36,531 bases of DNA from Clostridiaceae bacterium BRH_c20a (GTDB taxonomy: Bacteria; Bacillota; Peptococcia; Peptococcales; BICA1-8), in assembly GCA_000961765.1 (NCBI GenBank), contig LADT01000043.1:1-36531 (forward strand), in the 5' to 3' direction. Numbering within the stretch: the stretch's first letter is position 1; each line of letters opens with the position of its first letter. This document shows positions 7,188 through 28,394 of this stretch, one piece after another. The position numbers and the translations under genes were made by a program. The notes beneath the pieces were generated by a model. That model saw only the letters and a list, made by a program, of their open reading frames with translations, ran no database searches and was not told the DNA's origin.

Positions 7188-7850
7188 ATGGAGATATCCA
7201 GAAGAACGTTCTTAATTTCATTAAATGGTCTTATGGTAAGTTGTGCAGCTTTGACTACTGCACCCTTAACGGCAGCAGCTTCAGAAAATAAACGATGGGG
7301 AATGGCTGTTGATGTTAGAAAATGTGTAGGGTGTATGGCCTGCCGGGCTGCCTGCAAGTCAGAAAACAATGTACCCCTCGGCTCCCACCGAACATGGGTT
7401 GAAGAACAAGAAAAGGGTTTATACCCCCAAGCTATTCAGTTTTATTTACCAGCACTTTGTAATCATTGCAAAAAACCTTCCTGTGTGAAAGTATGTCCAG
7501 TTAAAGCAACATATCAGAGACCTGACGGAGTAGTTGCAGTAAAAGACTCCAGTTGTATCGGTTGTGGGGCGTGTATACAGGCTTGTCCGTATGGAGCAAG
7601 GTTTGTTGATCCAATTAAAAAGGTTGTCAACAAATGCAGTTTCTGCCTGCATCGTATCGAAAAAGGTTTAAGTGTTGCCTGCGCTGAAAACTGTGTTGGT
7701 AGGGCAAGAGTTTTCGGTGATTTGAATGATCCAAACAGTCAAGTCAGAAAAATAATTGATTCCCATACTGTTATGACTATCAAACAGGAAAGCGGTAACG
7801 GACCGATGATATTTTATGTTGGACTTGATACTATGATGGGAGGTGTCTAA
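7188..7850 (+). CDS. Module 1 B subunit: four-cluster ferredoxin (TtrB/PsrB-like)
   Basis: AAGGAGGTG lies before ATG 7188; 220 residues. The Tat signal is canonical (SRRTFLISLNG, cleavage after TAAA). Four Cys clusters follow in order: CVGCMACRAAC, CNHCKKPSCVKVC, CIGCGACIQAC and CSFC...CAENC. These would carry four [4Fe-4S] clusters that move electrons from the NrfD quinol site to the molybdenum subunit outside the membrane. It lacks the ~25-residue insertion between the third and fourth motifs that is present in the B subunits of modules 2 and 3. It is 2 nt from the C gene, so the two are cotranscribed. Best match is the tetrathionate, selenate or polysulfide reductase B type. Confidence 0.9.
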   Translation: MEISRRTFLISLNGLMVSCAALTTAPLTAAASENKRWGMAVDVRKCVGCMACRAACKSENNVPLGSHRTWVEEQEKGLYPQAIQFYLPALCNHCKKPSCVKVCPVKATYQRPDGVVAVKDSSCIGCGACIQACPYGARFVDPIKKVVNKCSFCLHRIEKGLSVACAENCVGRARVFGDLNDPNSQVRKIIDSHTVMTIKQESGNGPMIFYVGLDTMMGGV

Positions 7851-7852
7851 GG

Positions 7853-8896: not shown

Positions 8897-8915
8897 ACGA
8901 AAGGATGTGAGTATA

Positions 8916-11900
8916 GTGAGTAATGAACAATCCCGTAAGGATTTTTTAAAGAAAATGGGAGCTGCAGGTGCCTTAGCTGTTTTTGGTTTGAGTAATGCAG
9001 GTAAACTGGTCGAAGCTGTTACTCCTTCTCCTAAAAATGAACAAGAACTGGAGACAGAATTGGATGAAAATACTAGGGTTGTAAATACAACCTGTTTAGG
9101 TTGTGATGCCAGGTGTGGAGTTCGTGTTCAAACAAATGATGAGCAAATTACAAGGATTCAAGGAAGCCCATACAGTCCACAAAATATGGGATATGAACCA
9201 TTACCTTATAATACACCTGTCGCAGAGAGCTTAAAAACTGCTGGCCAGGCTTGTTTAAAAGGAACATCCGGAGCCCATTATAATTATGATCCGTTAAGAA
9301 TAGTTACCCCACTTAAGCGTAATGGCCCTAGAGGGTCGGATCAATGGAAGCCCATCTCTTGGGAGCAGCTAATAGATGAGGTAGTTGAAGGTGGAGAATT
9401 ATTTAGTGAAATTGGAGAAAATCGGTATATTGAAGGGTTTAGAAAAGTTCGTTCTACTGAGTTAATAGATCCGCAGCAACCCGAACTGGGGCCTAAATCA
9501 AACCAGCTATCCATGATTTATGGGGGGGGTGGGGGACAGGAGCCTCGTCCCGCCTTTTGTAAAAGGTGGCTTAGGTCTTATGGTAGCGTGAATTACTCAG
9601 ATCATAGTGACATTTGTCAATTACCTTGGTATTTTGGGCAGTTGTATGGCACTGATTTTAAAACAGACAATTGTCGTCCTGATTATGATTCTACCCGTTT
9701 TGTACTTGCTATGGGTATAACTATCTTTGAGGGTGCAAAGCCAGGTTTGTTAGGTGTTACCTCTAGAGTTGTTGAGAGAGTAAACAAAGGCGACTTAAAG
9801 GTAGTTTATGTTAATCCTAAAGCTCCCAAAACCCAGTCAGCTAAATGGGTACCCATTCGACCAGGTCGGGATGTTTCCCTTGTTATGGGTATGATTCAAT
9901 GGATAATGGCCAATAAGCGTTATGATCAAAGATTTCTCGAAAATACTAGTAAACAGGCTGCAGAAATAGATGGGGAACACTGCTGGACAGCTTCAACTTA
10001 TCTTGTTGTTCCTGAGTTAAGGCGCTATTTGAGAGCAAAAGACTTAGGAATTGGAGAAGATCAATACGTTGTGGTAGATCCAGTTACTATGGAGTTAACA
10101 ACCCATGATAAGGTTGATACAGGCGCTTTAGAATATAAAGGTACTGTCATTGTCGACGGAAAGGAAGTTCTAGTTAAAACTGGATTCCAAGTATTAAAAG
10201 ATTTAGCAAATGAAAATACTCCAGAAGGTTGGGCTAAACAATGTGATGTTCCATTAGAAACTATAATTGAATTAGCTAGGGAATTTACTAGCTACGGCAA
10301 GCAAGCTGCTACAGATAGTTATCGTGGTATGGACCAAGCCAATGGAAGCTATATGAATTGGGCTATCTTTATGTTAAACTCCTTAATAGGCAACTTCGGG
10401 GTTAAAGGCGGTTTATTAAAAACAGCCGGAGGATTTAACTATATTGCAGGTAAATATGACTTAGCAATGGTCAAGGATGCACCTTCTGGCGGAGGGGTAC
10501 GAATTGACCGAAATGAATTTAATTATGAAGATACATCACTATATAAGATGAAGTTTGCCAAAGGGGAAAATCCTTATCCTGCTAAACTACCCTGGTTTCC
10601 ATTAACTAAAGGGCGGGGGTCATATACCCAGGCGTTAATGGGGATAGACCAACAATATCCTTACCCAGTAAAAATTGTGATTTCCTATTTTATGGATGCA
10701 ATTGGAAACGTTGCAGGTGGACAGAGATACATTGAGACATTTAAAAGCTTAGAAAAAATTCCTCTGCACATTGCTGTTATGACCCAGTATGGGGAGCAAA
10801 CCCGATATGCTGATTATATTGTTCCTGATTACACCTATTTAGATGGTCAGTATTACACAGGAGGTTACCATTGGTCACCTATGAAAGCGACTCCCATAAG
10901 GACCCCTGTTGTTGAGTCAGCCACTAAGGGAATTTGCTTTGAAAAGTTCATGATCGATGTGGCCAAAGTTCTTGATATGCCAGGGTATGGCAGTAAAGCT
11001 GTAAATATAAAAGATGGTGGGGTTGCCAGATTAGAATCATCTGATGATTTTGCAGCCTATGCTTGTGCAAATCTAGCAATTAACGAAAAATTACCTGAGG
11101 CAAAGCCCGAAGAAGTTGCCTTTGTGGAGAAAAACTATCCTTGCTCCCAAAGGTTTAAGGAAGTCCTATCTGCATCTGATTGGAAAAGAGTATGCTATCT
11201 GTTAGCAAGAGGTGGGATTTTTGAGCCTAAGGAAAGCATATTTAATGAAAAGGGACACCATAAACATACCCCTTCACTGATGTTAGTTTTCTATAATGAA
11301 AAATTAGCAAATACAATTAATGCGGCCACAGGGAAACCGTACCATGACCTTCCTAGGCAGCAATTAATGGGTAGGGATTTTTATGATCGTTCTTTGGATC
11401 AATTGGCAGGAGATCAATATGCCTTTAATCTAGTCAGTCCTAGACATTCTGGTATGGCATTTGCCCGAAGTCAAAACTTTTACTGGATGATTGAGATTAT
11501 GCCAGAAAATTTTGTAGAAATAAATATTGAAGATGCTAAAACCTTGAATATTAATGATGGTGATAATGTTAAAGTATCTTCCCCTTATCTCCAAGACGGT
11601 AGTATCGGTAAAGCTAAGGTCTCCAATTTGATTTCTCGGGGTGTAGTATTTATTTATCATAGCTGGGGTAGATATAATTCACCAGGGTCACGGGAATGGT
11701 TTGTCAAAGATGGGGCGGACAAGGCGGTACAAGGATTTCCATTAGGCAAAGAGCGTAGTAATATACTATTTGGTCCAGGGTTGGTAAAAAATGGTGTAGT
11801 AGAAGGTGAGAAGGTAAAAGCTGATGCAAGACGTGGAAAAGGAATTTCCGGAAATGAACTAGGTTCAGTTTGGGAGTGGGATGGTAAAACCATTATTAGC

Positions 11901-11966
11901 TCTGACATAGTTTCCGGTGGTGGCAACTATTACTATCATAAGGTGTCTATTGAAAAAGTAAAATAA
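8916..11966 (+). CDS. Module 1 A subunit: long molybdopterin reductase (TtrA-like)
   Basis: Start GTG 8916 is chosen over GTG 8907 because AAGGATGTGAG is then properly spaced; 1016 residues. The Tat signal is SRKDFLKKMG, with Lys replacing the second Arg. The FS0 [4Fe-4S] motif CLGCDARC, with its fourth Cys in QACLKG, is complete. A Cys in SDHSDICQL (residue ~234) sits where the molybdenum ligand is expected, as in TtrA, ArrA and PsrA. The segment GPRGSDQWKPISWEQLIDEVVEGG and the ~1000-residue length are typical of tetrathionate-reductase-like (and SrdA-like) subunits rather than the ~760-residue PhsA/PsrA. The C-terminal dinucleotide-binding domain (~835-1010) is complete. It reduces an oxyanion outside the membrane; the substrate is not settled. 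Intrinsic terminator downstream. Confidence 0.88.
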   Translation: MSNEQSRKDFLKKMGAAGALAVFGLSNAGKLVEAVTPSPKNEQELETELDENTRVVNTTCLGCDARCGVRVQTNDEQITRIQGSPYSPQNMGYEPLPYNTPVAESLKTAGQACLKGTSGAHYNYDPLRIVTPLKRNGPRGSDQWKPISWEQLIDEVVEGGELFSEIGENRYIEGFRKVRSTELIDPQQPELGPKSNQLSMIYGGGGGQEPRPAFCKRWLRSYGSVNYSDHSDICQLPWYFGQLYGTDFKTDNCRPDYDSTRFVLAMGITIFEGAKPGLLGVTSRVVERVNKGDLKVVYVNPKAPKTQSAKWVPIRPGRDVSLVMGMIQWIMANKRYDQRFLENTSKQAAEIDGEHCWTASTYLVVPELRRYLRAKDLGIGEDQYVVVDPVTMELTTHDKVDTGALEYKGTVIVDGKEVLVKTGFQVLKDLANENTPEGWAKQCDVPLETIIELAREFTSYGKQAATDSYRGMDQANGSYMNWAIFMLNSLIGNFGVKGGLLKTAGGFNYIAGKYDLAMVKDAPSGGGVRIDRNEFNYEDTSLYKMKFAKGENPYPAKLPWFPLTKGRGSYTQALMGIDQQYPYPVKIVISYFMDAIGNVAGGQRYIETFKSLEKIPLHIAVMTQYGEQTRYADYIVPDYTYLDGQYYTGGYHWSPMKATPIRTPVVESATKGICFEKFMIDVAKVLDMPGYGSKAVNIKDGGVARLESSDDFAAYACANLAINEKLPEAKPEEVAFVEKNYPCSQRFKEVLSASDWKRVCYLLARGGIFEPKESIFNEKGHHKHTPSLMLVFYNEKLANTINAATGKPYHDLPRQQLMGRDFYDRSLDQLAGDQYAFNLVSPRHSGMAFARSQNFYWMIEIMPENFVEINIEDAKTLNINDGDNVKVSSPYLQDGSIGKAKVSNLISRGVVFIYHSWGRYNSPGSREWFVKDGADKAVQGFPLGKERSNILFGPGLVKNGVVEGEKVKADARRGKGISGNELGSVWEWDGKTIISSDIVSGGGNYYYHKVSIEKVK

Positions 11967-12096: not shown

Positions 12097-12100
12097 AATT

Positions 12101-12760
12101 TTAACTAATATATCCATTTTTAATAGCAAACTTTATTAAATCTGCAAGTCTTTTATTTCCCGTTTTTTCTTTAAGTTTTAATTTATGTTTTTCTACAGTC
12201 TTAATACTTATATTCAAAATATCAGAAATTTCCTTATCGGTATGTCCTTTAACAACAAGTTTTAGTACTTCAATCTCACGGTTTGATAGGTTCGCTCCGG
12301 AATAATCATCTGAATTTTTAGTAATTGAAAACTGACCGGCTAAATTGGAACGTAAAGTCTGACCTGCCAAGAAAGGGTCTACAGCTACTTCGCCGTTATA
12401 AACACGGCTAATGGCTTTAAATAATTCATTTTCACCTGTGTTTTTTAATATATAACCATTGGCACCTACTACTAGGGCTTTATTTAAAAAAGGAGGTTCA
12501 TCATGCATAGTTAAAATAATTATTTTAACTTTTGGAAATCTTGCTTTAATTTGGGGAATAACCTTAAGCCCATCTAATTTAGGCATGCTTATATCCAACA
12601 ACAGTACATCAGGTTCCTTATTTTCAAGGATAGTTAATACTTCTTCTCCATTGCTGGCCTCACCAATAACATTAAATACTTGTTGGTCTTTGAATAGAGA
12701 AATTAAACCTTTACGAAATATTTCGTGGTCATCAGCAATTACTACTTTTATTTTTGCCAC
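12101..12760 (-). CDS. Sensor unit 1 response regulator, NarL/FixJ type
   Basis: 219 residues. The receiver domain (~3-120) has the acidic pocket ADDHE and phospho-acceptor D56 (LLLDISMP), a switch Thr in ILTMH and Lys in YILKNTG. The LuxR-type helix-turn-helix (~155-215) contains LSNREIEVLKLVVKGHTDKEI and ISIKTVEKHK. It is the third gene of the minus-strand unit, 18 nt after the kinase gene. Its likely targets are the divergent promoter at 15144-15434 and perhaps module 1. The family is certain; the target is inferred from position. Confidence 0.9.
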   Translation of the reverse strand: MAKIKVVIADDHEIFRKGLISLFKDQQVFNVIGEASNGEEVLTILENKEPDVLLLDISMPKLDGLKVIPQIKARFPKVKIIILTMHDEPPFLNKALVVGANGYILKNTGENELFKAISRVYNGEVAVDPFLAGQTLRSNLAGQFSITKNSDDYSGANLSNREIEVLKLVVKGHTDKEISDILNISIKTVEKHKLKLKEKTGNKRLADLIKFAIKNGYIS

Positions 12761-12778: not shown

Positions 12779-14212
12779 TTAGGTTAAAGGTATTGTAAGA
12801 TAAACAGCTGTACCTTGACCAATTTCGGATTCTATTATTAAATTTCCCCCTGCAAGCTCCGCCCTTTCCATCATTCCATATAATCCTAAGGAAGAAATTG
12901 AGCCGGTTACTTTGTTTCCTATATTAAAGACTTTCTCCTCATTAAAACCCTGTCCGTTATCCTCAATTATAATCATAAGACGTTTTGGATTCTTTTTGAT
13001 AGTTACTTCTACCTGATCGGCCTCAGAGTGCTTGGCGATATTTGTAAGAGACTCTTGAATGATTCTATAAATGACAATACTAATCTCACCATCAAAATTA
13101 TCATTCTCTGAGAGGTCGCTCTGATAGTTAATAGTTATCTTATAATAGGTAGCAAAATTATCAATATAATTTTTGATAGCCATATCTAGACCTATTTTAT
13201 CAATGGTGCTGGGTCTTAATTCCCAGGCTAATCGTTTCAAATCAGAACTGGCCATCAAAACTATTTCTTTAAGTTCGTGGGATAAATATTTGCTTCTGTT
13301 CAAATCGGTCTCCTCGTGTATTCTGTCTAATCCTAGGCTAATTGCTGCCAGGCATTGGTTGGCTTCGTCATGTAATTCCCTGGATACTCGAGCCCTTTCC
13401 TCCTCTTGGGCAGTTATTATTTTTTGCAATAATTTTTTTCCTGTCTTTTGGGCATTTTCCATTTGGCCTGTTATCTCTTTTAGATTTCGGGCCATTTTAT
13501 TAAAAGTTTCCAATAAAGTGGTTATTTCTTTATCAAACCACCAGTTTACCTCCAGCTTACTGTCATAGTTTCCACTGCCAATTTTTGTGGCGAAGGTGAC
13601 CAATTGTTTGATTGGGTAAGTTAATAACTTTGTCAATAAATAAGCAAAAAAGATAGTTAGTATTATTATAATTGAAGTACTTTGAATAATTTTATGAGAA
13701 ACTTCTTCTAGACCGATGGTACGGTATTTTTCCGAGATACCTATACGTAAAGTTCCACCAAAACCTTTAGCAATAGGTGCTGCAATATCCCATATAATCC
13801 CCTCTTCGGTTTTTAGTTCTCTTAAATTACTTTTACTTCCTTCATAATTGTTAACCTCTAATAAGCCTTTAGGAACTCCAGTTGAAAAACTTGATAAAAC
13901 CAGGTTATTATCTTTATCCAGAATAAAATAATACCTTATATTAGGATCATCTTTTGTTAATTTTTCCATAATAATATTTAGTTGATAAACATTATTGGTT
14001 AAAATAGGTTCTGTTATCATTTGGGCTACATTGGTTGAAACGGAGTTGCCGTGCTGGATTAGCTGTTTTTCTAGTAGAGAACTTGTTTTTTCCCTTACTT
14101 CCCAATTAATCAAGAAAGCAAGAAATAAAATTAACATTATAACAATTCCTAAGATTTTTGCTTGAATAGAAATATGTCGGTGGATTCTTAAAATATTATA
14201 AATTATTTTCAT
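12779..14212 (-). CDS. Sensor unit 1 histidine kinase, NarX/HisKA_3 type
   Basis: 477 residues. TM1 (~20-36), an extracytoplasmic Cache-like domain (~40-175, with YYFILDKDNNLVLSSFSTG and WDIAAPIA), TM2 (~179-196), HAMP (~197-250) and a short coiled coil precede the kinase core. The phospho-acceptor is H281 in SRELHDEANQC, and a GHKL ATPase (~380-475) has IIEDNGQGF and GLYGMMERAELAGG. It overlaps the upstream lipoprotein gene by 17 nt, so the two are translationally coupled. The expected job is to read the binding lipoprotein's ligand state and phosphorylate the adjacent regulator. In TtrS the binding domain is fused to the kinase; here it is a separate protein, as in AioX/AioS. Confidence 0.9.
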   Translation of the reverse strand: MKIIYNILRIHRHISIQAKILGIVIMLILFLAFLINWEVREKTSSLLEKQLIQHGNSVSTNVAQMITEPILTNNVYQLNIIMEKLTKDDPNIRYYFILDKDNNLVLSSFSTGVPKGLLEVNNYEGSKSNLRELKTEEGIIWDIAAPIAKGFGGTLRIGISEKYRTIGLEEVSHKIIQSTSIIIILTIFFAYLLTKLLTYPIKQLVTFATKIGSGNYDSKLEVNWWFDKEITTLLETFNKMARNLKEITGQMENAQKTGKKLLQKIITAQEEERARVSRELHDEANQCLAAISLGLDRIHEETDLNRSKYLSHELKEIVLMASSDLKRLAWELRPSTIDKIGLDMAIKNYIDNFATYYKITINYQSDLSENDNFDGEISIVIYRIIQESLTNIAKHSEADQVEVTIKKNPKRLMIIIEDNGQGFNEEKVFNIGNKVTGSISSLGLYGMMERAELAGGNLIIESEIGQGTAVYLTIPLT

Positions 14213-15143
14213 ATTTTTCTCTTACCTCATTAATTAATTGATATACATTTTCGTAACTTTTCTCTGGCTGGGGTTCTACCTTATATCCTTCGATATCAAA
14301 TTTTGCAAAAATATTTCTAAAATTTTCGTTCTCATTTACACTGAGAAATAGCTTTATAAATTCCTCCTTCAAGTTTTCATCAAGGTTGCTACGGGCAACG
14401 ATTGGCGAGTTCATGAATTTGGGGGATTTCTCTATGATACGAATATTTTTGGAAATCTCAGGGTTATTTTTAATTACTTTATAAAAAACTGTACTGTCTA
14501 TTGCCGCTCCATCGGCTAAACCATTAAGGACGGCGTAAATAGAATTATCATGGCTATAGCTAAAGAAAAACCTTGAAAAAAAATCATGGGGGTTACTACC
14601 ATATCCTGTAATTCGGTATGCGGGATAATAATATCCAGTAGTAGACATTGGATCGCTAAAGGCAAAACGTTTATCTTTCAGTTGGGCAAATTCCTTTATT
14701 TCGCTGGTTTCTTTAACAATGATATATGATTGGTAATTGTAATCCCCATAAATTTTCGGAACAACCAATAATTCTATATTAAAATCTTCTTTAGCTAATA
14801 AGTAGCTTGAGGAGCAAATAAGAGCAACATCAACTAAATTTAATGAAAGCAGGTAATTTATTTCTGCATAGTTTTGCCTTTGGACAACTTCTACTTTTCT
14901 TCCCAGTTGATTTTCTATAAACTTAACCAAAGCCCAGTAATATTCAATATTAGATTCCGGAGATATGCCGGTGGCTAGAGCAATCCTAAAGGGTTTTGTA
15001 TCTTGTTCTGTTTTTGAAACAATCTCCGTGTTATTAATAACAATATCCAATTCTTTATTATTGGATTTTGTACATGAAGAAATTAACAACATAACCAACA
15101 TCATTACAAATAATAAAAGGAAAATTGGTTTTTGTTTATTCAT
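14196..15143 (-). CDS. Sensor unit 1 PhnD-like periplasmic-binding lipoprotein
   Basis: 315 residues. The leader ends in LMLLISSC (lipid-modified C24), so it is tethered outside the membrane. The body is a PhnD/phosphonate-type binding fold: FRIALATGISPESNIEYY, LVKFIENQLGRKVEVVQRQNY and a central DPMSTTGYYYPAYRI hinge segment. No transporter genes are near; instead it is coupled to a kinase. PhnD-like proteins paired with kinases (AioX, ArxX/ArrX, and the TtrS sensor domain) bind arsenite, arsenate or tetrathionate. It is therefore read as the ligand sensor of a three-component system. The ligand is unknown. Confidence 0.85.
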   Translation of the reverse strand: MNKQKPIFLLLFVMMLVMLLISSCTKSNNKELDIVINNTEIVSKTEQDTKPFRIALATGISPESNIEYYWALVKFIENQLGRKVEVVQRQNYAEINYLLSLNLVDVALICSSSYLLAKEDFNIELLVVPKIYGDYNYQSYIIVKETSEIKEFAQLKDKRFAFSDPMSTTGYYYPAYRITGYGSNPHDFFSRFFFSYSHDNSIYAVLNGLADGAAIDSTVFYKVIKNNPEISKNIRIIEKSPKFMNSPIVARSNLDENLKEEFIKLFLSVNENENFRNIFAKFDIEGYKVEPQPEKSYENVYQLINEVREKYENNL

Positions 15144-15296: not shown

Positions 15297-15316
15297 AATC
15301 AGGGATTACCCTGATT
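15297..15316. promoter_or_regulatory. 20-bp dyad AATCAGGG-ATTA-CCCTGATT
   Basis: The 8-nt arms are exact complements around ATTA, followed on the plus strand by a T run. It could be a terminator, but it lies upstream of the likely module 2 promoter and downstream of no gene. An operator for the NarL-type regulator or another factor is more plausible. Confidence 0.5.
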
Positions 15317-15434: not shown

Positions 15435-16304
15435 ATGAGTTCAAAATCAGATGAGCAAAAAATGGATAGAAGATCATTAATTAAGGCAGGAGTTACTGTC
15501 GGTTCAGGAGTATTACTGGCCTCAGCTATTAAGACTTCAACTTCTGTTGCTGATGTTGTTGGAGGTAAAAGCACTCAAATAAAAGATTTACCAAAGGGCA
15601 TGGCTGACGATGAGTTTTCCCGTATGCAAACAGAGTTACTTAAGGCTCTTGCTAAGCCGGAAACTGAAAATCATTGGATTATGGTTATTGACCAAAGAAA
15701 ATGCGTGGGTTGTATTTCTTGTACTGTTGCATGTAAAGCAGAGAATGCCTTACCGCCAGGAGCAGTATATCGACCTGTAATTGAGCATGAAATAGGTACA
15801 TTCCCTAATGTGCGAAGGTCTTTTTTACCTAGACCTTGTATGCACTGTGAAAATCCCCCTTGTGTTTCTGTATGCCCGGTTAATGCAACCTACAAGCGTC
15901 CTGATGGTATTGTTTCCATTAATTATGAGCGTTGCATCGGTTGCAGGTATTGTTTAAATGCATGTCCTTATGGTGCTAGACAATTTGACTGGGGTGAGTA
16001 TTATACAGAAAATACCCCAGAAATTCAGCCATATGAAAAAGTTGCCAACTATGAATATGGTATAGGAAGGGTTAGGGAAAAAGGAAATTCTCCAATAGGG
16101 AATGCCAGGAAATGTCATTTCTGCGTACATCGCATTAAAAAAGGAATGCTACCCACATGCGTGACAACCTGTATGGGTCGTGCTACCTATTTTGGGGACT
16201 TAAATGATAAGAAGAGTCTAGTGCATGAATTAATAGGTTCTGCTAGAGTTATGCGCCTGAAAGAAGAATTAGGAACAAAGCCTAGTGTTTATTATCTTGT
16301 GTAA
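15435..16304 (+). CDS. Module 2 B subunit: four-cluster ferredoxin
   Basis: GGAGGTG lies 7 nt before ATG 15435; 289 residues. The Tat signal is [13 protein letters not shown]. The cluster motifs are [35 protein letters not shown] and CHFC...CVTTC. Between motifs 3 and 4 is an insertion (FDWGEYY ... [12 protein letters not shown]) shared almost position for position with the module 3 B subunit and absent from module 1. It is also the longest of the three, with an extra ~40 residues between signal and first cluster. It feeds electrons to the catalytic subunit; the C gene follows 22 nt downstream. Confidence 0.9.
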
Positions 16305-16326
16305 ATATATTCTTAGGAGGTGAAAA

Positions 16327-17610: not shown

Positions 17611-20600
17611 TTTTCTAAAATCCTCTGCATTTCTAGGAAGTACTTCCTTTCTAGCAACTACATTAGCAGGTGCGGAAAGATCTTATGCAAATGCAGTTAA
17701 AAGTGAAGATGGTACTTATCCTTTAATTCAGCCAGAAAATATTCTTTACAGCGCTTGTCTACAGTGTACTGTTGCTTGCAGTATTAAGGTTAAGCTAATA
17801 GACGGAGTTGCAGTTAAGATTGATGGTAACCCATATAGTACTATGACATTGGCTAAAAATATCCCTTATGCTACCAAACCTCATGATGCTGTAACCATTG
17901 ATGGTAAACTATGTCCTAAAGGGCAAGCTGGTATCCAGCATGCTTATGATCCATATAGGTTACGCAGGGTATTAAAGCGTAAAGGGCCTAGAGGTTCAAA
18001 TGAATGGGAAGTAATACCATTTGATCAGGCTATCACTGAAGTTGTTGAGGGTGGCAAACTGTTTTCCCATATTGGTGAAGACACGGATATACCAGGCTTA
18101 AAAGACATAATTATTTTAAAGGATGCGACAGTTGCCAAAGCTATGAAAGATGATGTTGATAAAATCCGCAAAAAGGAAATGACAGTTGCTGAATTTAAGG
18201 AAAAACATAAAAACAATTTGCATTATTTAATTGATCCAAACCATCCTGATAAGGGGCCAAAGAATAACCAGTTCCTTTATCAAGTAGGCAGGATTCATAA
18301 TGGTAGAAAAGAGTTTACTCAGCGTTGGGTTAAAGATTCTATGGGTAGTGTAAACTGGATTGAAAAGACTACTTTATGTGGACAGACAAGTAACAAGTCC
18401 TGGACTTTTTCAACAATGGGTTATACTAGTGGAAAATGGGGTGGTGGAGGTCATAAGAGCCCCCGTCCTGATCATTGGAATAACGAATTTTTATTAGTTT
18501 TTGGTACCATTATTTTTGAGGCTGCTTATGGTCCTGTCCAGCAAAGTGAGCCTATAACTGAAGGAATAAATTCCGGTAGACTGAAAATAGCGGTAGTTGA
18601 CCCCAGAATGACCAAGGTTGCTTCTAAGGCCTGGAAATGGCTTCCTGTTAAGCCAGGAACAGACGGTGCTTTTGCCTTAGCTATGATTAGATGGATGTTG
18701 GAAAATGATCGATATGACAAAAAATATCTAGCAAATGCTACTAAAGCTGCTGCAAATGCTGATGGAGAGCTAGGATATTCTAATGCAACCTATTTAGTTA
18801 AAATTGTTGATGGAGATAGAGCTGAAAAGCATCTACGGGCAAGTGAAATTGGCATAGGTACTGAGGAGCAATTTGTAGTTATGCAAAATGGTCAGCCAGT
18901 AGCGGTAACACCGGAAGACAAGGTTGATGCCATTGAGGGAGAACTATTTGCAGATACAGAAATCGAAGGTATAAAGGTAAAAAGTCCGCTACAAATAATT
19001 AAAGAAGAGGCTTTTTCTAAGACGTTAGAGCAATGGTCTGAAGTTACAGGTATTGAAGTAAAAGATATTATAGAAGTTACTAAGGAATTTACATCCTATG
19101 GCAGAAAAGCTGGTGTTGAATTTTACCGAGGCCCTATTAAGCATACTAATGGCTGGTATAATGCCCATGCTTTAATAATATTAAACTTTTTAGTTGGAAA
19201 TCCTGATTGGAAGGGTGGTACTTCTAAACCAGGTGGCGGTTGGAATTATATGGGGGCTAATGCAGGACAGCCGTATGATTTTAAAAAATTACATCCAAAT
19301 AAAGTTAATAATTTTGGTATTCCAATTACTAGAGAAGGTTGGAACTATGAAGAGTCAACATTGTTTGAGGGATATCCAGCTAAAAGACCGTGGTATCCTT
19401 TCAGTGGCAATGTAGCACAAGAAACATGGGCATCTGCTAATGATGAATATCCCTATGGAATAAAAGCGGCCCTAATATCCTCCCATACACCAATGTATTC
19501 AATACCAGGTGGGCAAGCTCAGCTTAAAACATTATTAGATCCCAAAAAAGTACCATTATTAATTTCCTGTGATATTATTGTGGGGGACACCAGTCAATAT
19601 TCTGATTATATTTTCCCAGATATCACTTATTTGGAAAGATGGGCTACTCCAGGTGCTGGCCACCATGATCGGGTTAAAAATAGCCAGATTAGACAACCGG
19701 TAATTGAGCCGTTAACAGAGACTGTTGAGGTATTTGGAGAGAAGATGCCGGCATCTTTGGAGGCTTTAATGATGGCTATAGCTGAAAAGCTAAATTCATC
19801 TGGTTTTGGTAAGGACGCTTTTGGTCAAGGCATGGATTTAGTCCGGATGGAAGATTATTATTTAAAGAATGTGGCTAATGTCACCTTTGATAAAGGCTTA
19901 AATATGCCTGAGGATGTCCAAGATGATGAAATGAAGCTTTTCAGGGAAAGTCGCCGCCATTTAACACCAGCAATATTTGATGAAGAGAAATGGAAAAAGG
20001 CTCTTAAACCTGAGGAATGGAAAAAGGTAGTATATGCTTTGAATAGAGGAGGTAGATTTGAGTCTCACGAGGAAACGTATGATGGAGAGACTATTAAAAA
20101 GCGCCTAGGTGGTATGAGTAGATTGTATCTTGAAGAAGTTGCAACTACTAGACATGCAGTCAGTGGAAAGTATTTCTATGGATATCCTATATACCAAACA
20201 GTTCTAGACTCTATGGGTAAGGAGGTAAATGATAAACGGGAATTTAAGCTAATTACTTTTAAAGAGGTATGGGGTACTCAATCGAGAACTATTAGTAACT
20301 ACTGGTCCCAAGTGAGTATTATGCCGGAAAATGGAGTGTTGATGAACAGTATAGATGCCCAGAAGTTAGGAATTAAAAACGGAGACATGGTCCAAATCCA
20401 ATCAGCTAGTAACCCAGAAGGCATACATTTACTTGATTTAGGAAAATCAAGACCTGTTATAGGTAAAGCCAAGGTAGTTGAAGGCATAAGGCCAGGGGTT
20501 GTAGGAATATCTACCCACTTTGGTCACTGGGGCTATGGTTCTAATGATATTGTTGTAGATGGTGCCATAATCAAAGGTGAAGCTAAAAGGGGTGCTGGGG

Positions 20601-20716
20601 TCCATCCTAATCCATTATTTAGATTAGATGATAATCTTCGGGGGACAACATTAAGTGAGCCTATCGGCGGCAGTGCTTCCTTTTACGATACAGAGGTAAC
20701 CATTATACCTCTTTAA
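17567..20716 (+). CDS. Module 2 A subunit: long molybdopterin reductase
   Basis: GAGGAGGTGG lies before ATG 17567; 1049 residues. The Tat signal is canonical (LSRRDFLKSSAF). The FS0 cluster motif is complete (CLQCTVAC, fourth Cys in KLCPKG). The molybdenum ligand is probably Cys271 in TTLCGQTSN. The block LKRKGPRGSNEW...ITEVVEGGKLFSHIGE parallels module 1, so both A subunits belong to the long, TtrA/SrdA-like branch. An extra charged segment of ~35 residues (~185-220, Lys-rich) separates it from module 1. The C-terminal domain ends with STHFGHWGYGS and GSASFYDTEV. Substrate candidates are tetrathionate, selenate or another oxyanion; sequence inspection cannot choose. Confidence 0.88.
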   Translation: MTDNHKACPHLSRRDFLKSSAFLGSTSFLATTLAGAERSYANAVKSEDGTYPLIQPENILYSACLQCTVACSIKVKLIDGVAVKIDGNPYSTMTLAKNIPYATKPHDAVTIDGKLCPKGQAGIQHAYDPYRLRRVLKRKGPRGSNEWEVIPFDQAITEVVEGGKLFSHIGEDTDIPGLKDIIILKDATVAKAMKDDVDKIRKKEMTVAEFKEKHKNNLHYLIDPNHPDKGPKNNQFLYQVGRIHNGRKEFTQRWVKDSMGSVNWIEKTTLCGQTSNKSWTFSTMGYTSGKWGGGGHKSPRPDHWNNEFLLVFGTIIFEAAYGPVQQSEPITEGINSGRLKIAVVDPRMTKVASKAWKWLPVKPGTDGAFALAMIRWMLENDRYDKKYLANATKAAANADGELGYSNATYLVKIVDGDRAEKHLRASEIGIGTEEQFVVMQNGQPVAVTPEDKVDAIEGELFADTEIEGIKVKSPLQIIKEEAFSKTLEQWSEVTGIEVKDIIEVTKEFTSYGRKAGVEFYRGPIKHTNGWYNAHALIILNFLVGNPDWKGGTSKPGGGWNYMGANAGQPYDFKKLHPNKVNNFGIPITREGWNYEESTLFEGYPAKRPWYPFSGNVAQETWASANDEYPYGIKAALISSHTPMYSIPGGQAQLKTLLDPKKVPLLISCDIIVGDTSQYSDYIFPDITYLERWATPGAGHHDRVKNSQIRQPVIEPLTETVEVFGEKMPASLEALMMAIAEKLNSSGFGKDAFGQGMDLVRMEDYYLKNVANVTFDKGLNMPEDVQDDEMKLFRESRRHLTPAIFDEEKWKKALKPEEWKKVVYALNRGGRFESHEETYDGETIKKRLGGMSRLYLEEVATTRHAVSGKYFYGYPIYQTVLDSMGKEVNDKREFKLITFKEVWGTQSRTISNYWSQVSIMPENGVLMNSIDAQKLGIKNGDMVQIQSASNPEGIHLLDLGKSRPVIGKAKVVEGIRPGVVGISTHFGHWGYGSNDIVVDGAIIKGEAKRGAGVHPNPLFRLDDNLRGTTLSEPIGGSASFYDTEVTIIPL

Positions 20717-20891: not shown

Positions 20892-20982
20892 GATAAATTG
20901 TGCCAATATTTCATGTATAAGGAATAAAAATTGTTAGCTTTATACTGTATAATAAATATAAATATTCTTTATGGGGGAAGTC

Positions 20983-21918
20983 ATGGGAAAATACTTTAGA
21001 AAAAAATCTGTTTATATCATTCTAATATTCTTAATAGTATTTATTTTTTCGGGGTGTAACAGTCAAGAGCGGGAATATAAGGAAATAAAACTATCAGATC
21101 AAACTGATACAACCTATACCCAAGAAAGTATAGAAGATAAAATTACTATTGCGATAAATGTTGGTCTTTCTCCCCTAAAAAGTTTAAATATATATGAGGA
21201 ATTTATTACTTTACTAGAAGATAGGATGGAAGAAGAAATTGATTTAGTGCAAAAAAAGAGTTCCGCCGAAATTATAAGCTTGATGAAGGATGGCAAGGTT
21301 GATATTGCTTTTATAGACTCAGGGGGCTATCTCCGGGCTAGAGAGGAGAATGCAGGGCAACTTTTAGTCATCCCAGTAATAAATGGTGAACAAATGCATC
21401 AGTCCCACATTTTAATCAATAAGGATGACAGTATTACAGATTTTAGCCATTTAAAGGGAAAGAAAATTGCTTTTACAGACCCGTGGAGTATTGAGGGAAC
21501 CGTATATCCCATGGCTTTGATTAAAGATTTAGGAGAAACTCCGGAGACCTTTTTTTCTAACTATTTTTATAGCTTTTGTTATGATAAAGCTATATCAGCA
21601 CTGCTTTCTAAAACAGTAGATGCTGTTTCCATTGATGGTAATATATTAGATTTATTAATTAAAAGAGAAATAATAAATAAAGGTTATTTTAAAATAATTA
21701 ATAGTTCTAATAAGCTTCCCAATGCACCTATCATTGTTCGAAATGACTTGGCTCAAGAAACTAAGGACAATTTAAAACAGGTTTTCACTAACCTGGGCAC
21801 CGAAAGTGAGGAGAAAAAGGTGATGTCTAATATGAATATAGACAGGTTTGTAATTGTCGAAGAAAGTTTATTTGAACCAATACAAAGTATGAATGAAAAG
21901 GTTTTTAATTATGATTAA
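20983..21918 (+). CDS. Sensor unit 2 PhnD-like periplasmic-binding lipoprotein
   Basis: ATG 20983 is preferred over ATG 20971, because GGGGGAAG lies just before it; 311 residues. The leader ends FLIVFIFSGC (lipidated C25). The binding domain has ITIAINVGLSPLKSLNIYEEF, MEEEIDLVQKKSSAEIISL and FTDPWSIEGTVYPMAL, parallel to FSDPMSTTGYYYPAY in unit 1, so the two are paralogues with different pocket residues. Likely the ligand sensor for the kinase downstream (overlap 8 or 26 nt by start choice). Confidence 0.85.
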   Translation: MGKYFRKKSVYIILIFLIVFIFSGCNSQEREYKEIKLSDQTDTTYTQESIEDKITIAINVGLSPLKSLNIYEEFITLLEDRMEEEIDLVQKKSSAEIISLMKDGKVDIAFIDSGGYLRAREENAGQLLVIPVINGEQMHQSHILINKDDSITDFSHLKGKKIAFTDPWSIEGTVYPMALIKDLGETPETFFSNYFYSFCYDKAISALLSKTVDAVSIDGNILDLLIKREIINKGYFKIINSSNKLPNAPIIVRNDLAQETKDNLKQVFTNLGTESEEKKVMSNMNIDRFVIVEESLFEPIQSMNEKVFNYD

Positions 21919-23365
21919 GGGTGGCTTATCTAAAATATTTAATTTTCAATTGTTGGGTTCGGCAAGCTTAAGGACTAAATTAATGGGTATACATTTATTT
22001 ATGGCCTTGATATTTTCAGTTTGGATAACCTATTATACTCAATCAATACTGCAGGTATCATTCCATAGGCAATTAGAGCAACAAGGGATAGCTATCTCTA
22101 GGGACATAGCAAGTAGAAGTGTAGACTATGTGTTAACAGAAAATATTTTCGAGCTAAAAAGTACTATTCATGATACTACCATCAATAATAATAGTGTTAG
22201 ATATATTTTTTTTATTAACCAAGATAACAAAGTTTTGACCCATTCTTTTACTAAAGGTTTACCAGTAGGTTTACTAGATGCCAACTGGGTAAATGGCCAA
22301 GATTCCCGTGTACAGCTATTAAAAACTGAGGAAGGTTTAGTGTGGGATATAGCAACCCCTATTGCTGGTGGACAGGCAGGTATCGTAAGGGTTGGATTAA
22401 TTACTACCGGCTTGCATTCCCTAGTTAAAAGTATAAGTAGTAATGTGTTGATAAGTTTAATAATGGTTGCTGTTTTTTCTACCCTTATTGCATATAGTCT
22501 TCAAAAGGTTATAACTGACCCTATTATAAATTTAGTGCAGGCAACTCAGGCAGTTGCCGCCGGGAATTTCTCCTATAGGGTAGAAGCCAGTTCAATAGCT
22601 AGTGGTGAGGTAGGAGTACTGGTCAAATCATTTAATAAAATGGCTGAAAAGTTAGAAAAATCCCATCAGGAAATTGAAGAAGTTGAAAAAATGAGAAGGC
22701 TTTTGTTGGAAAAGGTTGTTTCTATACAGGAAGAGGAAAGGAAACGCATAGCTATGGAGCTGCACGATGAAGCTGGCCAATCACTAACAGGGTTGAAATT
22801 TACTTTAAAATCCTTAGAGAATTCTTCGGAAGAACCTAATTTGAAAAAATCTCTTAAGGAAATTCACCAGCAGGTGAGTAATACCTTGTCTTCAATACAT
22901 GAAATAATTGTGGAGTTAAGACCAAAATTACTGGATGAGCTTGGCTTTACTGGAGCTGTTAAAAGATATTTAAAAGAATATCAAGCACGTTATGGAATAA
23001 ATGTAAATGCAGACCTAAAAATACTAGACTCCATTCAAATAATGCCGGAAGCTGCTACAACAATATTTCGTATTATTCAAGAGGCCCTTACTAACACTGC
23101 TAAATATGCGAAGGCTAGAGAGATAAATTTAAGTTTTCAAAAGCAGCAAGGGAACTTATTAATTGTTATTGAGGATGATGGTTTAGGATTTGACCCGGCT
23201 TTAATTAACGAACACAGTGAAAATCCGAACAAATTAGGGATCTTTGGCATGAAGGAAAGGGCTGCATTAATTGGTGGAACTTTTATTATTGACACGGCAC
23301 AGGAAGAGGGAGTAACTATTCTATTAAGATTGCCATTAGAAAGGGTGACCTCAATAAATGAATAA
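21893..23365 (+). CDS. Sensor unit 2 histidine kinase, NarX/HisKA_3 type
   Basis: 490 residues from ATG 21893; ATG 21911 is an alternative. TM1 (~31-47), an extracytoplasmic domain (~50-180, with WDIATPIAGG matching the unit 1 kinase), TM2 (~184-203), HAMP (~205-258), HisKA_3 with H291 in AMELHDEAGQS, and a GHKL ATPase with IEDDGLGFD and GIFGMKERAALIGG. It is the clear paralogue of the unit 1 kinase. The 3' end overlaps the regulator gene by 8 nt. It transmits the lipoprotein signal to the next gene's product. Confidence 0.9.
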   Translation: MKRFLIMIKGGLSKIFNFQLLGSASLRTKLMGIHLFMALIFSVWITYYTQSILQVSFHRQLEQQGIAISRDIASRSVDYVLTENIFELKSTIHDTTINNNSVRYIFFINQDNKVLTHSFTKGLPVGLLDANWVNGQDSRVQLLKTEEGLVWDIATPIAGGQAGIVRVGLITTGLHSLVKSISSNVLISLIMVAVFSTLIAYSLQKVITDPIINLVQATQAVAAGNFSYRVEASSIASGEVGVLVKSFNKMAEKLEKSHQEIEEVEKMRRLLLEKVVSIQEEERKRIAMELHDEAGQSLTGLKFTLKSLENSSEEPNLKKSLKEIHQQVSNTLSSIHEIIVELRPKLLDELGFTGAVKRYLKEYQARYGINVNADLKILDSIQIMPEAATTIFRIIQEALTNTAKYAKAREINLSFQKQQGNLLIVIEDDGLGFDPALINEHSENPNKLGIFGMKERAALIGGTFIIDTAQEEGVTILLRLPLERVTSINE

Positions 23366-24026
23366 AATCAAAATTGTAATTGCTGATGACCACAATGTTG
23401 TGCGAAAGGGTTTAAAACTATTACTAGAAAATGAACAGGATATTTGTGTAATAGGTGAGGCTGAAAACGGCCAAGAAGCTATTAACATTTGTAGAGACAA
23501 TAATCCTGATATTCTTTTATTAGATTTACAAATGCCAAAGATGGATGGGCTGGAAACATTGACTGAGGTAAAAAAAATACTTCCTCAATTAAAGGTGTTA
23601 ATTCTAACAATGCATGAGGACGAAGAGATCCTTATAGAGGCAATGCGAAATAATGCTAATGGATACATTCTCAAAAAAGCTCCCGAGGACCAGTTGCTGC
23701 AGGCCATAAGGTCTATAAGCCGCGGAGAAGTTTTCTTAGATGGCGTAAATACTAAAGCATTTATAAGAGCCGTTTTTGAAGAAAGAAGTAGTCATTCTGA
23801 ACAGAAAGGACAGGCGGCCAGTGGTAAAAAGCTTTCCCAAAGGGAAAATGAAGTTTTAAAATTAGTGGCTCAAGGTTTTACTGATAAGGAGATAGCTGAT
23901 AATTTAAATATTTCTATTAAAACGGTAGAAAGTCATAAGCACAGGATTAAGGAAAAGTTAGGACTCAAAAGACTAGCCGAGCTTATTAGATATGCTATAG
24001 AAAATAATCTGCTAAATGAGGAATAG
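23358..24026 (+). CDS. Sensor unit 2 response regulator, NarL/FixJ type
   Basis: 222 residues. The receiver has ADDHN, phospho-acceptor D56 (LLLDLQMP), ILTMH and YILKKAP. The LuxR-type DNA-binding domain reads LSQRENEVLKLVAQGFTDKEI and SIKTVESHKHRIKEKLGL. It is only 40 nt upstream of module 3, so sensor unit and module 3 may form one transcript with positive feedback. Compared with unit 1 it has a charged linker (~135-152, SSHSEQKGQ). Confidence 0.9.
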   Translation: MNKIKIVIADDHNVVRKGLKLLLENEQDICVIGEAENGQEAINICRDNNPDILLLDLQMPKMDGLETLTEVKKILPQLKVLILTMHEDEEILIEAMRNNANGYILKKAPEDQLLQAIRSISRGEVFLDGVNTKAFIRAVFEERSSHSEQKGQAASGKKLSQRENEVLKLVAQGFTDKEIADNLNISIKTVESHKHRIKEKLGLKRLAELIRYAIENNLLNEE

Positions 24027-24066: not shown

Positions 24067-24837
24067 GTGAATCAGGATAAAATAGATAGAAGAAAAGCTA
24101 TTTTAGGATTAGGTCTAACTGGAATGGGAATGGCATTCGGGGAGTTATTGCGGGTGTCCCTTAATGAAAGTGATAAATGGACTAAATATCCATCTTCCAA
24201 AAAGCAGCAGTATGCTATGCTTATTAATCTGGATTTGTGTATTGGATGTAATTCCTGTACCATTGCCTGTAAACAAGAAAATCATACTCCCCCGGGTGTG
24301 CAATATAATATTGTACTCAAAAAGAGAGAGGGAACTTATCCCCAGTGTAAAGAGCGTTATCTGCCCAGACCCTGCATGCATTGTGAAAAGCCTCCTTGTG
24401 TAAAAGTATGTCCGGTAGGTGCAACCAAAAAAAGAAAAGATGGTATTGTAGATATTGATTACAACAAATGCATAGGCTGCCGTTACTGTTTAACTGCTTG
24501 TCCATATGGTGCTAGAGCTTATGATTTTGGTGAAAATTATTATACTCCTCCTAATAGCTTTGAAAAAGCCCGGAGTTATGAGTATGGAAATGAGTGGGTT
24601 AGGGAAAAAGGCAAATCTCCTATAAATAATGTACGTAAATGTCATTTTTGTTTACACAGAATTAAAAAAGGCCTTGAACCTGCCTGTGTTCAGAGCTGTA
24701 TGGCACAGGCTAGGACTTTTGCTGATATAAATCAAGTTGGCAATGCAATTACTACAAATATAGCTAATGAGAACTTTTGGCGTCTAAAAGATGAATTAGG
24801 GACTTTTCCCAGTGTCCTCTATGTCGGCAAGTTTTAA
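24067..24837 (+). CDS. Module 3 B subunit: four-cluster ferredoxin
   Basis: GTG 24067, because the ATG two bases earlier is followed at once by TGA; 256 residues. The leader is DRRKAILGLGLTGMG, Tat-like but short. The motifs are [35 protein letters not shown] and CHFC...CVQSC. The insertion between motifs 3 and 4 (FGENYY ... YEYGNEWVREKG) closely matches module 2, indicating a recent common origin of these two B subunits. It passes electrons from the NrfD anchor to the 763-residue catalytic subunit. Confidence 0.9.
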   Translation: MNQDKIDRRKAILGLGLTGMGMAFGELLRVSLNESDKWTKYPSSKKQQYAMLINLDLCIGCNSCTIACKQENHTPPGVQYNIVLKKREGTYPQCKERYLPRPCMHCEKPPCVKVCPVGATKKRKDGIVDIDYNKCIGCRYCLTACPYGARAYDFGENYYTPPNSFEKARSYEYGNEWVREKGKSPINNVRKCHFCLHRIKKGLEPACVQSCMAQARTFADINQVGNAITTNIANENFWRLKDELGTFPSVLYVGKF

Positions 24838-24849
24838 GGGGGTATTATT

Positions 24850-26064: not shown

Positions 26065-26102
26065 GGATAAACCTATTAAAAAATTGAATGGGGTGTTCTT
26101 TA

Positions 26103-28394
26103 ATGGACAACATCTATAAAAGAAAAGTAAGTAGAAGAAATTTTTTAAAGACCTCCTCGTTAATAGGTGGAGGCTTGACCATTAATTTTTTAAAAGGTGA
26201 AAAAGTCAGAGCCAATGAGGACCAACCCCTATTGAGTCCTCAAGGAACATGGGTCTACACCTGTTGCCATATGTGTGGTGGGGGAACAGGAATAAAAGTA
26301 CAAGTTGTCGATGGCGTTGCCTATAAAATAGAACCTAATGCTTATAATCCATTGGGAGTATGTAATATATCTCAAGATTATGAAAAAGAAGCCTCAAAAG
26401 GTAGTGCTGTGTGTCCTAAAGGTAATGCAGGCCTTATGTCCTTATATGACCCCGACAGAGTAAAAAAGCCCTTGCTGAGGACTAACAAGCAAAAAGGAAA
26501 AGGAGTAGACCCTAAATGGCAGGAAATTTCCTGGGAGAAAGCCTTTGAATTAATTACCCAGCGGCTTAAAAAACTACAAGACCAGAGTACACCTGAGAGG
26601 TTGATTACTTTTTCTGAAAGTACTATTGCTAAAGATATACAGCAGGATTTTGGCAATTTGTTTGGCACACCTAATGTCAGTTTCCATACAAATCTCTGCA
26701 GTGCCTCTAGAAAAGCGGCAGCTTTAAGCATAACAGGGGAAGCAGAACCCTTAGGTGATTATGCTAATACAAACTATATGTTGATTTTTGGTTGGAATCC
26801 TCTAGGTGCAACAAAATGGTCCCATTTGCCTAAAATAATAACTAAAGGGATAAAAAATGGGGCAAAGCTTGTTGTTATTGATCCTTGGTGTAATGAAACA
26901 GCAAGTAAAGCTCACCAATGGATAGCCATTAAGCCAGGCGCCGATGGAGCATTAGCACTTGCTATTGGACATATCCTTATTAGAGAAGGATTATATAATA
27001 AGGAATTTGTGGATAATTGGACTGCGGGCTTTAATGAATATGCCCAATATGTAAAAGATAAGACACCGGAATGGGCTGCGCTAATAACTGGTGTGCCTAT
27101 CGAAACAATTAATCAATTGGCTAGAGAATTAGCTGATGCCCATGCGGCAATTGTCGATACTTGGGCAGGGCCTGGTCATCACTCAAATGCAGTTGATAAT
27201 ATGCGGGCTATTTTTATGCTCAACCTATTACTAGGGACTATTGATAAACCAGGAGGACTGTTACTGCCGAGAAAATCCATCCTTAATAAGGGTCCTCTTA
27301 AACTCAAGAAAATATCAAAGAGTCGCTTTGATGGTTTGGATAATTATCCTTTAGGCCATAGTTCCGGGGTTTATGTAGAAACTATGGAAAAATTAAGAGA
27401 AGGAAATGGTCCTTATCCCTTAGAGGTTGGTATTGCTACAATGACTAACTTGGTGTTCTCAGTACCGGGAACGGAGCAGGTAATTGAAGCCATAAAAAAG
27501 CTGGACTTTTTTGTAGTAATAGATAATTATTTAAGTGAAACTGCTTTGTTGGCAGATATAGTATTACCAGGAACTACTTATTTAGAGAGATATGGATTGG
27601 TAAGCAGGGGGATAACCTGGCCTATGGTGGCTTTGAGGCAGCCTGTAGTAGAACCTACCTTTGGGCAGTACCCGGAGTACGATATTTTTATACAATTAGG
27701 TCGTAGATTAAGGCTTAAAGATGCTGAAGAAATGGAGCCTTTTGCCAATCTAACCTATGAAGAATATCTTGATTTTAATCTATATTATTCTCTTGGTTTT
27801 GGACTAGAACAGCTTAAAAAAATGCCCGGGGCGGTTTGGCAAGACCCTAAAGGAACAGTGTTTCAGAAATATAAAGAAGGGCTTAATACCCCCACAGCTC
27901 GTTTTCAGTTTACTCTTAATAGCTATAATGGGAAAAAAATTTATGATATTTATGGTCAGGATGCCGGAGGGCTTCCTGTTTATAGAGAAAAAAAATGGCA
28001 GCCTGATGAGGAATATCCACTATATTTAATATCCTGGAAACAAGCTAACCATACCCATAGTAGAACCTTTAATAATCCTTATTTAATGGATATAAAAAAT
28101 TACAATCCTTTATATATGAATATTACAACAGCCCAGGATTTAGGTATTAATGACGGCGATAGCGTTTGGGTGGAATCTCCCTACAGTAAAGATAAGGCTA
28201 TAGTTAAGGTAATAGATGGTATTCATCCCCAGGTAGTTGGTTGGCAATGGGGGTATGGACACTGGGGATTTGGAAAGGTGGCTCAAGGTAAAGGAACTAA
28301 TGCTAGTCAGTTTAATTTTCTGCAAGCTGAGCCTATTAGTGGTCAAGCCTTACACAAGGAAGTTTGTGTGAGAGTGTATAAAGCCTCAATTTGA
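26103..28394 (+). CDS. Module 3 A subunit: short (PsrA/PhsA-size) molybdopterin reductase, altered FS0 motif
   Basis: ATG 26103 is chosen over ATG 26088 because GGGGTG is correctly spaced; 763 residues. The Tat signal is canonical (VSRRNFLKTSS). The proximal-cluster motif is odd: C54, C55, C58 and then Thr62 where the third Cys of CxxCxxxC is expected. C104 (AVCPKG) is the usual last ligand, and C87 is an extra Cys. The molybdenum ligand is probably Cys199 (HTNLCSASR). YDPDRVKKPLLR, GPGHHSNAVDNMRAIFML and KPGADGALALAIGH are standard family blocks, and the C-terminal domain ends with HWGFGKV. Size and blocks place it near polysulfide/thiosulfate reductases, with arsenate reductase (ArrA) a further possibility. 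It is only distantly related to the module 1 and 2 A subunits. Confidence 0.87.
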   Translation: MDNIYKRKVSRRNFLKTSSLIGGGLTINFLKGEKVRANEDQPLLSPQGTWVYTCCHMCGGGTGIKVQVVDGVAYKIEPNAYNPLGVCNISQDYEKEASKGSAVCPKGNAGLMSLYDPDRVKKPLLRTNKQKGKGVDPKWQEISWEKAFELITQRLKKLQDQSTPERLITFSESTIAKDIQQDFGNLFGTPNVSFHTNLCSASRKAAALSITGEAEPLGDYANTNYMLIFGWNPLGATKWSHLPKIITKGIKNGAKLVVIDPWCNETASKAHQWIAIKPGADGALALAIGHILIREGLYNKEFVDNWTAGFNEYAQYVKDKTPEWAALITGVPIETINQLARELADAHAAIVDTWAGPGHHSNAVDNMRAIFMLNLLLGTIDKPGGLLLPRKSILNKGPLKLKKISKSRFDGLDNYPLGHSSGVYVETMEKLREGNGPYPLEVGIATMTNLVFSVPGTEQVIEAIKKLDFFVVIDNYLSETALLADIVLPGTTYLERYGLVSRGITWPMVALRQPVVEPTFGQYPEYDIFIQLGRRLRLKDAEEMEPFANLTYEEYLDFNLYYSLGFGLEQLKKMPGAVWQDPKGTVFQKYKEGLNTPTARFQFTLNSYNGKKIYDIYGQDAGGLPVYREKKWQPDEEYPLYLISWKQANHTHSRTFNNPYLMDIKNYNPLYMNITTAQDLGINDGDSVWVESPYSKDKAIVKVIDGIHPQVVGWQWGYGHWGFGKVAQGKGTNASQFNFLQAEPISGQALHKEVCVRVYKASI

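Follow-up and report, generated by a model that had tools for sequence, protein, structure and literature searches.

A stretch of 36,531 nucleotides from Clostridiaceae bacterium BRH_c20a (contig LADT01000043.1; hereafter the window) carries three molybdoenzyme modules and two sensor units. Each module encodes a 4Fe-4S ferredoxin subunit (B), an NrfD membrane anchor (C) and a molybdopterin-dependent catalytic subunit (A), in this order, and each unit encodes a lipoprotein (X), a histidine kinase (S) and a response regulator (R), together called XSR. The modules are referred to as module 1 (B1C1A1), module 2 (B2C2A2) and module 3 (B3C3A3), and the units as unit 1 (X1S1R1) and unit 2 (X2S2R2). 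We consider it likely that the locus is a selenium-respiration island, in which the selenate reductase genes srdBCA (module 2) stand with their ancestral partners, unit 2 and module 3, and a box upstream of srdB is switched by an XSR system.

The 15 genes were all confirmed as open reading frames, with the coordinates listed in the table below. Their products gave Pfam matches to 4Fe-4S dicluster (B), NrfD (C) and molybdopterin oxidoreductase (A) domains; in the units, X1 and X2 matched Phosphonate-bd (PF12974; E values of 2e-56 and 3e-50), the kinases matched HAMP, HisKA_3 and HATPase, and the regulators Response_reg and GerE. The E values for the 15 genes exclude chance. Read from the translations, A1, A2 and A3 each have a twin-arginine translocation (Tat)-type, RRxFL-like signal and a cysteine at the place of the molybdenum ligand, and X1 and X2 have lipobox-like signals. 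The initial annotation, made from the letters of this DNA, had given the same modules and units and had described a respiratory oxyanion locus; both descriptions held, with the strand of unit 1 corrected to minus. Unit 1 and module 1 converge, with a hairpin (11983–12011) in between, and unit 1 and module 2 diverge. Unit 2 and module 3 form a single plus-strand run.

In a scan of named genomes, the closest matches to A2 were from Anaerobacillus arseniciselenatis, Mesobacillus selenatarsenatis SF-1 and Desulfosporosinus. SrdA of SF-1, the A. arseniciselenatis protein and A2 formed one clade in a tree of 52 rows (100*; asterisked or bare values are tree support as given), and A2 was 67% identical to SF-1 SrdA. 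According to the genome paper, srdBCA of SF-1 is on contig BSSF00031 (contig 31; PMC4319585). The SF-1 match to A2 sits on contig BASE01000031. Since this is the contig stated for srdBCA, and in view of the clade and the identity, module 2 (15435–20716) is by orthology srdBCA, the predicted genes of a respiratory selenate reductase. The srdB-srdC-srdA gene order and the Tat signals were both found. Selenate is the best-supported substrate at the locus as judged from the sequences, and not tetrathionate. For the latter, which had been among the substrates proposed initially, there was no specific support: with the TtrA model NF011567, whose cut-off is 1750 bits and which gave 2075 bits for TtrA of an Escherichia coli plasmid, A1 scored 518 and A2 454 bits, and tetrathionate reductase was rejected for both modules. 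With the ArrA model NF041714 (cut-off 1600 bits), A1, A2 and A3 scored 59, 99 and 255 bits, which places them outside ArrA.

The gene order X2-S2-R2-B3-C3-A3-B2-C2-A2 was observed in both A. arseniciselenatis (locus L110) and SF-1 (locus L115), the window namesake being the best match for each gene. S2 and R2 formed one clade with the kinase and regulator of these loci (99*). The kinase-regulator tree was used here in place of the tree of X, which alone resolves little and joins long branches. The shared order and the S2R2 clade imply that unit 2, module 3 and srdBCA belong together ancestrally; the window holds a rearranged form of this conserved X2S2R2-B3C3A3-srdBCA locus, to which unit 1 and module 1 were added. 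Module 2 has the same gene order as srdBCA of SF-1, where the orthologues of unit 2 and module 3 lie directly upstream, whereas in the window srdBCA is upstream of unit 2 and module 3. In these two genomes the nine genes stand in an order different from that of the window, and no unit 1 was seen at the locus. That unit 2 is joined to module 3 was confirmed, as they adjoin and their linkage is conserved; by orthology, unit 2 belongs with srdBCA too. A different, Cys-bearing XSR unit precedes srdBCA in Desulfosporosinus and Paradesulfitobacterium, and among SrdA-like loci for which 6 kb or more of upstream DNA was available, 22 of 44 had an X protein. The regulator gene of the SF-1 srd locus (L115, 2814–3281) is a truncated frame in the draft genome, by sequencing error or real loss.

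By sequence, the nearest solved relatives of X1 and X2 were ArrX, followed by AioX (X1 to ArrX, 5e-43), in agreement with the relationship suggested initially. The predicted structure of X2 (predicted local distance difference test score 90) was superposed on ArrX with a Z of 33.3 and a root-mean-square deviation of 1.5 Å over 250 residues. As the X2 model scored nearly as high against PhnD, the fold alone does not separate the ArrX and PhnD types. A role of X as an ATP-binding cassette transporter component was rejected, the neighbours being a kinase and a regulator.

The arsenite/phosphate pocket of AioX is formed by Y88, C106, Y131, S161, S163, H192 and D210, and is conserved in ArrX and ArxX (PMC5908839). 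At these positions X1 has Y C Y S T H D and keeps the arsenic pocket, with S163 replaced by Thr as in many relatives. X2 has S D H S E Y D; Cys106 and His192 are absent, which sets it apart from the conserved arsenic pocket. Two lipoproteins with different pockets had been predicted, and at the sequence level this is what was found. No ligand is claimed for X1, because the binding residues failed to predict arsenite versus arsenate (PMC5908839). An arsenic ligand is unlikely for X2, whose pocket has lost the Cys and the His and acquired two acidic residues. We class X2 as a sensor that would act in the XSR manner, not as an arsenic sensor, and it probably reads another ligand; from gene context, our guess is a selenium oxyanion. 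Cys106 was present in 47 of 49 molybdoenzyme-linked X proteins of other loci, the two exceptions being the X2 orthologues of A. arseniciselenatis and SF-1, whose pockets read Y-Y-gap-S-S/N-V-D. With X1 and X2 counted in, the enzyme-linked X proteins number 51, and X2 and these two orthologues are the only ones in which the pocket Cys is missing. PhnD-like proteins with Gly106 (loci L108 and L109) served as outgroup in the X tree. Six further XSR units, forming one clade and having no molybdoenzyme within 10 kb, carry Ser106 in place of Cys106.

The window units resemble the AioXSR, ArxXSR and ArrXSR systems (PMC5908839) in the fold of X, the three-gene unit, the ArrR-like class of regulator without an AAA+ domain, the palindromic box and, for X1, the conserved pocket. 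They differ in being linked to a selenate reductase and not to arsenic enzymes. No paper linking AioX-type sensors with selenate reductase was found in our literature search.

The putative ArrR site of Chrysiogenes is tcaggtttttccctga (PMC5908839). In the divergent intergenic region between X1 and srdB, the sequence TCAGGGATTACCCTGA matches it in arms and spacing, and upstream of srdB we found TAAGGGAAAACCCTGA in SF-1 and TTAGGGTAAACCCTGA in Anaerobacillus. When 58 XSR loci (1.07 Mb) were searched for TNAGG-N6-CCTNA, 13 of the 23 exact copies fell in enzyme-upstream regions, which make up 1.7% of the DNA (54 regions, each 330 bp around and upstream of the first enzyme gene start); such counts are somewhat inflated by congeneric loci. 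In those regions, control palindromes were found once (TGG-CCA, CGG-CCG) or not at all (reversed, ACC-GGT), as were the spacing variants N7 (one) and N5 (none). The box occurred in 11 of 28 enzyme regions, compared with a mean of 0.2 in dinucleotide shuffles, and in 1 of 38 regions upstream of X. Since the motif was partly chosen from the window, SF-1, Anaerobacillus and Chrysiogenes sequences, the remaining loci are the test set. The only exact copy in the window is the one in front of srdB, with none upstream of B1, X2 or B3.

The pattern was unusable for deriving a genome-wide regulon (with one mismatch, 108 occurrences versus 129 for the reverse). A scan for sigma-70 promoters gave sites no more numerous than in shuffles. 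A riboswitch or known RNA leader before srdB was also discarded, the sub-threshold Rfam match (RF02900, 27.9 versus 51.4 bits) being taken as chance.

The phylogeny of the A subunits, a check suggested initially, placed A1 near TtrA (93) on a long branch, and A3 in a 100* clade with the proteins encoded directly upstream of srdBCA in SF-1 and Anaerobacillus, besides A2 in the SrdA clade. A1 has no close relative (best identity 36–39%), and module 1 is best described, from its sequence, as a distant TtrA relative. It has the B-C-A order in common with TtrRS-TtrBCA of the E. coli plasmid, but A1 is only 31% identical to TtrA. The kinase TtrS contains the PhnD-like domain within itself, whereas in the window this domain is a separate lipoprotein. 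Among TtrA-like homologues of A1, an in-frame TGA was seen at one locus (L197) and in four other genomes; at L197 it stands at the molybdenum-ligand Cys, which suggests selenocysteine-containing TtrA-like enzymes.

Module 3 is PsrA/PhsA/SrrA-like. The best curated model for A3 was PhsA (NF012032; 390 bits against a cut-off of 694, outside PhsA proper), and the best PDB match was Thermus 2vpw. The B-C-A order of module 3 differs from the A-B-C order of phsABC. Throughout the A3 clade (the window, SF-1, A. arseniciselenatis and loci L101–L103), the N-terminal cluster motif is CCxxCGGxTG, near residues 58–66 of A3, with Thr for the third Cys and an additional Cys ahead of the motif. The nearest relatives outside this clade have no leader and look cytoplasmic. 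A search of the order of Anaerobacillus gave no further A3 homologue at E 1e-90.

In the scheme that we propose, X would bind an oxyanion outside the membrane and activate S, which would phosphorylate the NarL-type regulator R. R would then bind the TCAGG-N6-CCTGA palindrome about 120 bp upstream of srdB and switch on srdBCA. The product, by orthology, would be a Tat-exported, quinol-linked reductase converting selenate to selenite. Although R1 is encoded nearer to the box, it has an atypical recognition helix (KTVEKHK versus KTVESHK/KTVETHK) that differs from that of R2; R2, being the regulator conserved together with srdBCA, is the more probable one. Unit 1, an additional XSR with an arsenic-type pocket, may feed into the same box, so that two units at one srd promoter may be two inputs on one operator, or unit 1 may act elsewhere. 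Module 1, having no box, is probably controlled otherwise.

Several observations weigh against this scheme. A T run follows the box at 15299, which scored as an intrinsic terminator as well, and several boxes at other loci directly follow the stop codon of the previous gene. No box stands ahead of unit 2 or module 3, so that module 3 may escape this control. The extra acids of X2 (D106, E163) fit a free selenate dianion poorly, and X2 and its orthologues may not share one ligand, as their pockets differ. The substrate cannot be read from the pocket, since X1-type XSR units are found next to ArrA, next to SrdA and next to other enzymes. What the analysis shows is the gene content, the orthology, the pocket residues and the statistical enrichment of the box; the phosphorelay, DNA binding, ligands and transcription units are deduced.

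The terminator-like features raise the alternative that the enriched palindromes are not operators but only serve to end transcription of the preceding gene, as rho-independent terminators. Several do have long stems and A/T flanks right behind a stop codon, at four loci. However, palindromes of like composition were not enriched in the same regions, the pattern is genome-wide no commoner than its reverse, the box of the window and that of another locus lie in divergent regions with no gene to terminate, and the box matches the independently proposed ArrR site; we give this explanation little credence. As many boxes are terminator-like, read-through control at the same element is possible. The initial annotation had the two sensors divide control, unit 1, with its arsenic-type pocket, acting on modules 1 and 2 and unit 2 on module 3. 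The place of unit 1 between the two modules, the short R2-B3 gap, the differing R1 and R2 helices and an X1-like XSR preceding a TtrA-like module in another genome would fit. The difference in pockets stands, but the division is not borne out. Unit 1 and module 1 point towards each other across a hairpin, and no box precedes B1, X2 or B3; in SF-1 and Anaerobacillus, the orthologue of unit 2 goes together with srdBCA; and the sole exact box, between unit 1 and module 2, could serve either regulator. Divided control is thus unlikely.

Still less probable is that both units are arsenic sensors flanking oxyanion reductases by chance, with module 2, module 1 or both reducing arsenate as an 'alternative arsenate reductase' of the TtrA/SrdA family. 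Both lipoproteins have ArrX as their best solved relative, and an archaeal arsenate reductase falls within that family (PMC7331816); but A2 is in the SrdA clade, X2 is without the Cys and His of the arsenic pocket, and elsewhere in this genome there is an ArrA-type operon (1193 bits to ArrA) that has an XSR unit and a box of its own. A narrower reading, compatible with the selenium-respiration island, is that module 3 is a respiratory, SrrA-like selenite reductase taking the product of SrdBCA. The lineage of PhsA, the best curated model for A3, holds SrrA (PMC7331816), and the linkage of module 3 to srdBCA recurs in SF-1, a strain producing Se(0) from selenate (PMC4319585), and in A. arseniciselenatis, tabulated as selenite-positive (PMC11944866). 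On the other side, A3 was placed in a tree without SrrA itself, its closest other relatives have no leader, and the B-C-A order and the cluster motif without its third Cys are unusual; we regard this role as possible but somewhat doubtful.

Features of the locus and their positions in the window
Feature	Position	Strand	Description
B1	7188..7850	+	Tat-exported 4Fe-4S ferredoxin subunit, module 1, TtrB/DsrO-like; NF011569 TtrB 219 bits, cut-off 416
C1	7853..8896	+	Short NrfD/TtrC-type membrane anchor, module 1; PF03916 6e-24
A1	8907..11966	+	TtrA/SrdA-family catalytic subunit, module 1, long branch near TtrA
R1	12101..12760	-	NarL/FixJ-type response regulator, unit 1
S1	12779..14212	-	Membrane histidine kinase (HAMP, HisKA_3), unit 1
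X1	14196..15143	-	ArrX/AioX-type lipoprotein sensor, unit 1; pocket Y C Y S T H D
XSR box TCAGGGATTACCCTGA	15299..15314		Candidate operator, exact TNAGG-N6-CCTNA upstream of srdB; also scores as rightward terminator-like hairpin
B2	15435..16304	+	SrdB orthologue; 411-429 bits to SF-1/A. arseniciselenatis namesakes, synteny
C2	16327..17610	+	SrdC orthologue (NrfD); 550-556 bits to SF-1/A. arseniciselenatis namesakes
A2	17567..20716	+	SrdA orthologue, catalytic subunit; 67% to SF-1 SrdA
X2	20971..21918	+	ArrX/AioX-fold lipoprotein sensor, unit 2; altered pocket S D H S E Y D
S2	21893..23365	+	Membrane histidine kinase (sCache_3_2, HAMP, HisKA_3), unit 2
R2	23358..24026	+	NarL/FixJ-type response regulator; orthologous to SF-1/Anaerobacillus srd-locus unit (99*)
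B3	24067..24837	+	Ferredoxin subunit, module 3; starts 40 bp past R2
C3	24850..26064	+	NrfD anchor, module 3
A3	26088..28394	+	PsrA/PhsA/SrrA-like catalytic subunit, module 3; 53% to the srd-locus orthologues in SF-1 and A. arseniciselenatis
Box-like palindrome TAAGGGTTTTCCCTAT	28401..28416		One mismatch to XSR box; just past A3, before tatA; weak
tatA	28525..28719	+	TTG start; follows module 3

A tatA gene also directly follows srdA in A. arseniciselenatis and SF-1, and the arr operon of the window genome itself. Downstream of tatA (28944–29991), mobA-like and molybdopterin-binding (MoeA-like) genes are broken by frame changes and stops, by pseudogene formation or sequence error. Read by eye, a LysR effector-domain fragment lies upstream of the locus (5800–6300), and an apparent pair of TcmP and phage Gp37-like genes downstream (31646–33257). 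Elsewhere in the genome there is a fourth B-C-A operon (L053, contig C16, 5459–15497), 43% identical to A2. Its sensor system, which differs although the enzyme family is the same, consists of a large kinase, a regulator of a longer type (446 amino acids) and a putative, separately encoded binding protein. A truncated copy of the X gene (L052, contig C25, 8227–8850), beside a transporter-like gene also found at the arr operon (L051), looks like a decayed duplicate.

In the literature searched, there was no description of how selenate-respiring bacteria switch on their reductase. The locus is real and well conserved; XSR units and B-C-A molybdoenzymes are already known as a kind, while its function is predicted, its sensor is unusual and its proposed operator can be tested. 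The parts it offers for this are a proven enzyme family, two sensors whose fold is solved and whose pockets contrast, and a 16-bp box that is well defined. With the SrdA-type enzymes, found in several phyla, the XSR family now reaches beyond arsenic enzymes. The locus suggests that one sensor-and-operator scheme governs arsenic and selenium respiration. More tentatively, and somewhat short of an even chance, XSR could be, instead of an arsenic system, a general switch for chalcogen and metalloid oxyanion respiration through a single operator, TNAGG-N6-CCTNA, with X2 and its SF-1 and Anaerobacillus orthologues forming a new, Cys-less class of selenium-oxyanion sensors, the first selenate/selenite-sensing two-component system, in control of srdBCA. 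The link between XSR and SrdA bears on the prediction of substrates from genomes and on the building of selenium or arsenic biosensors.

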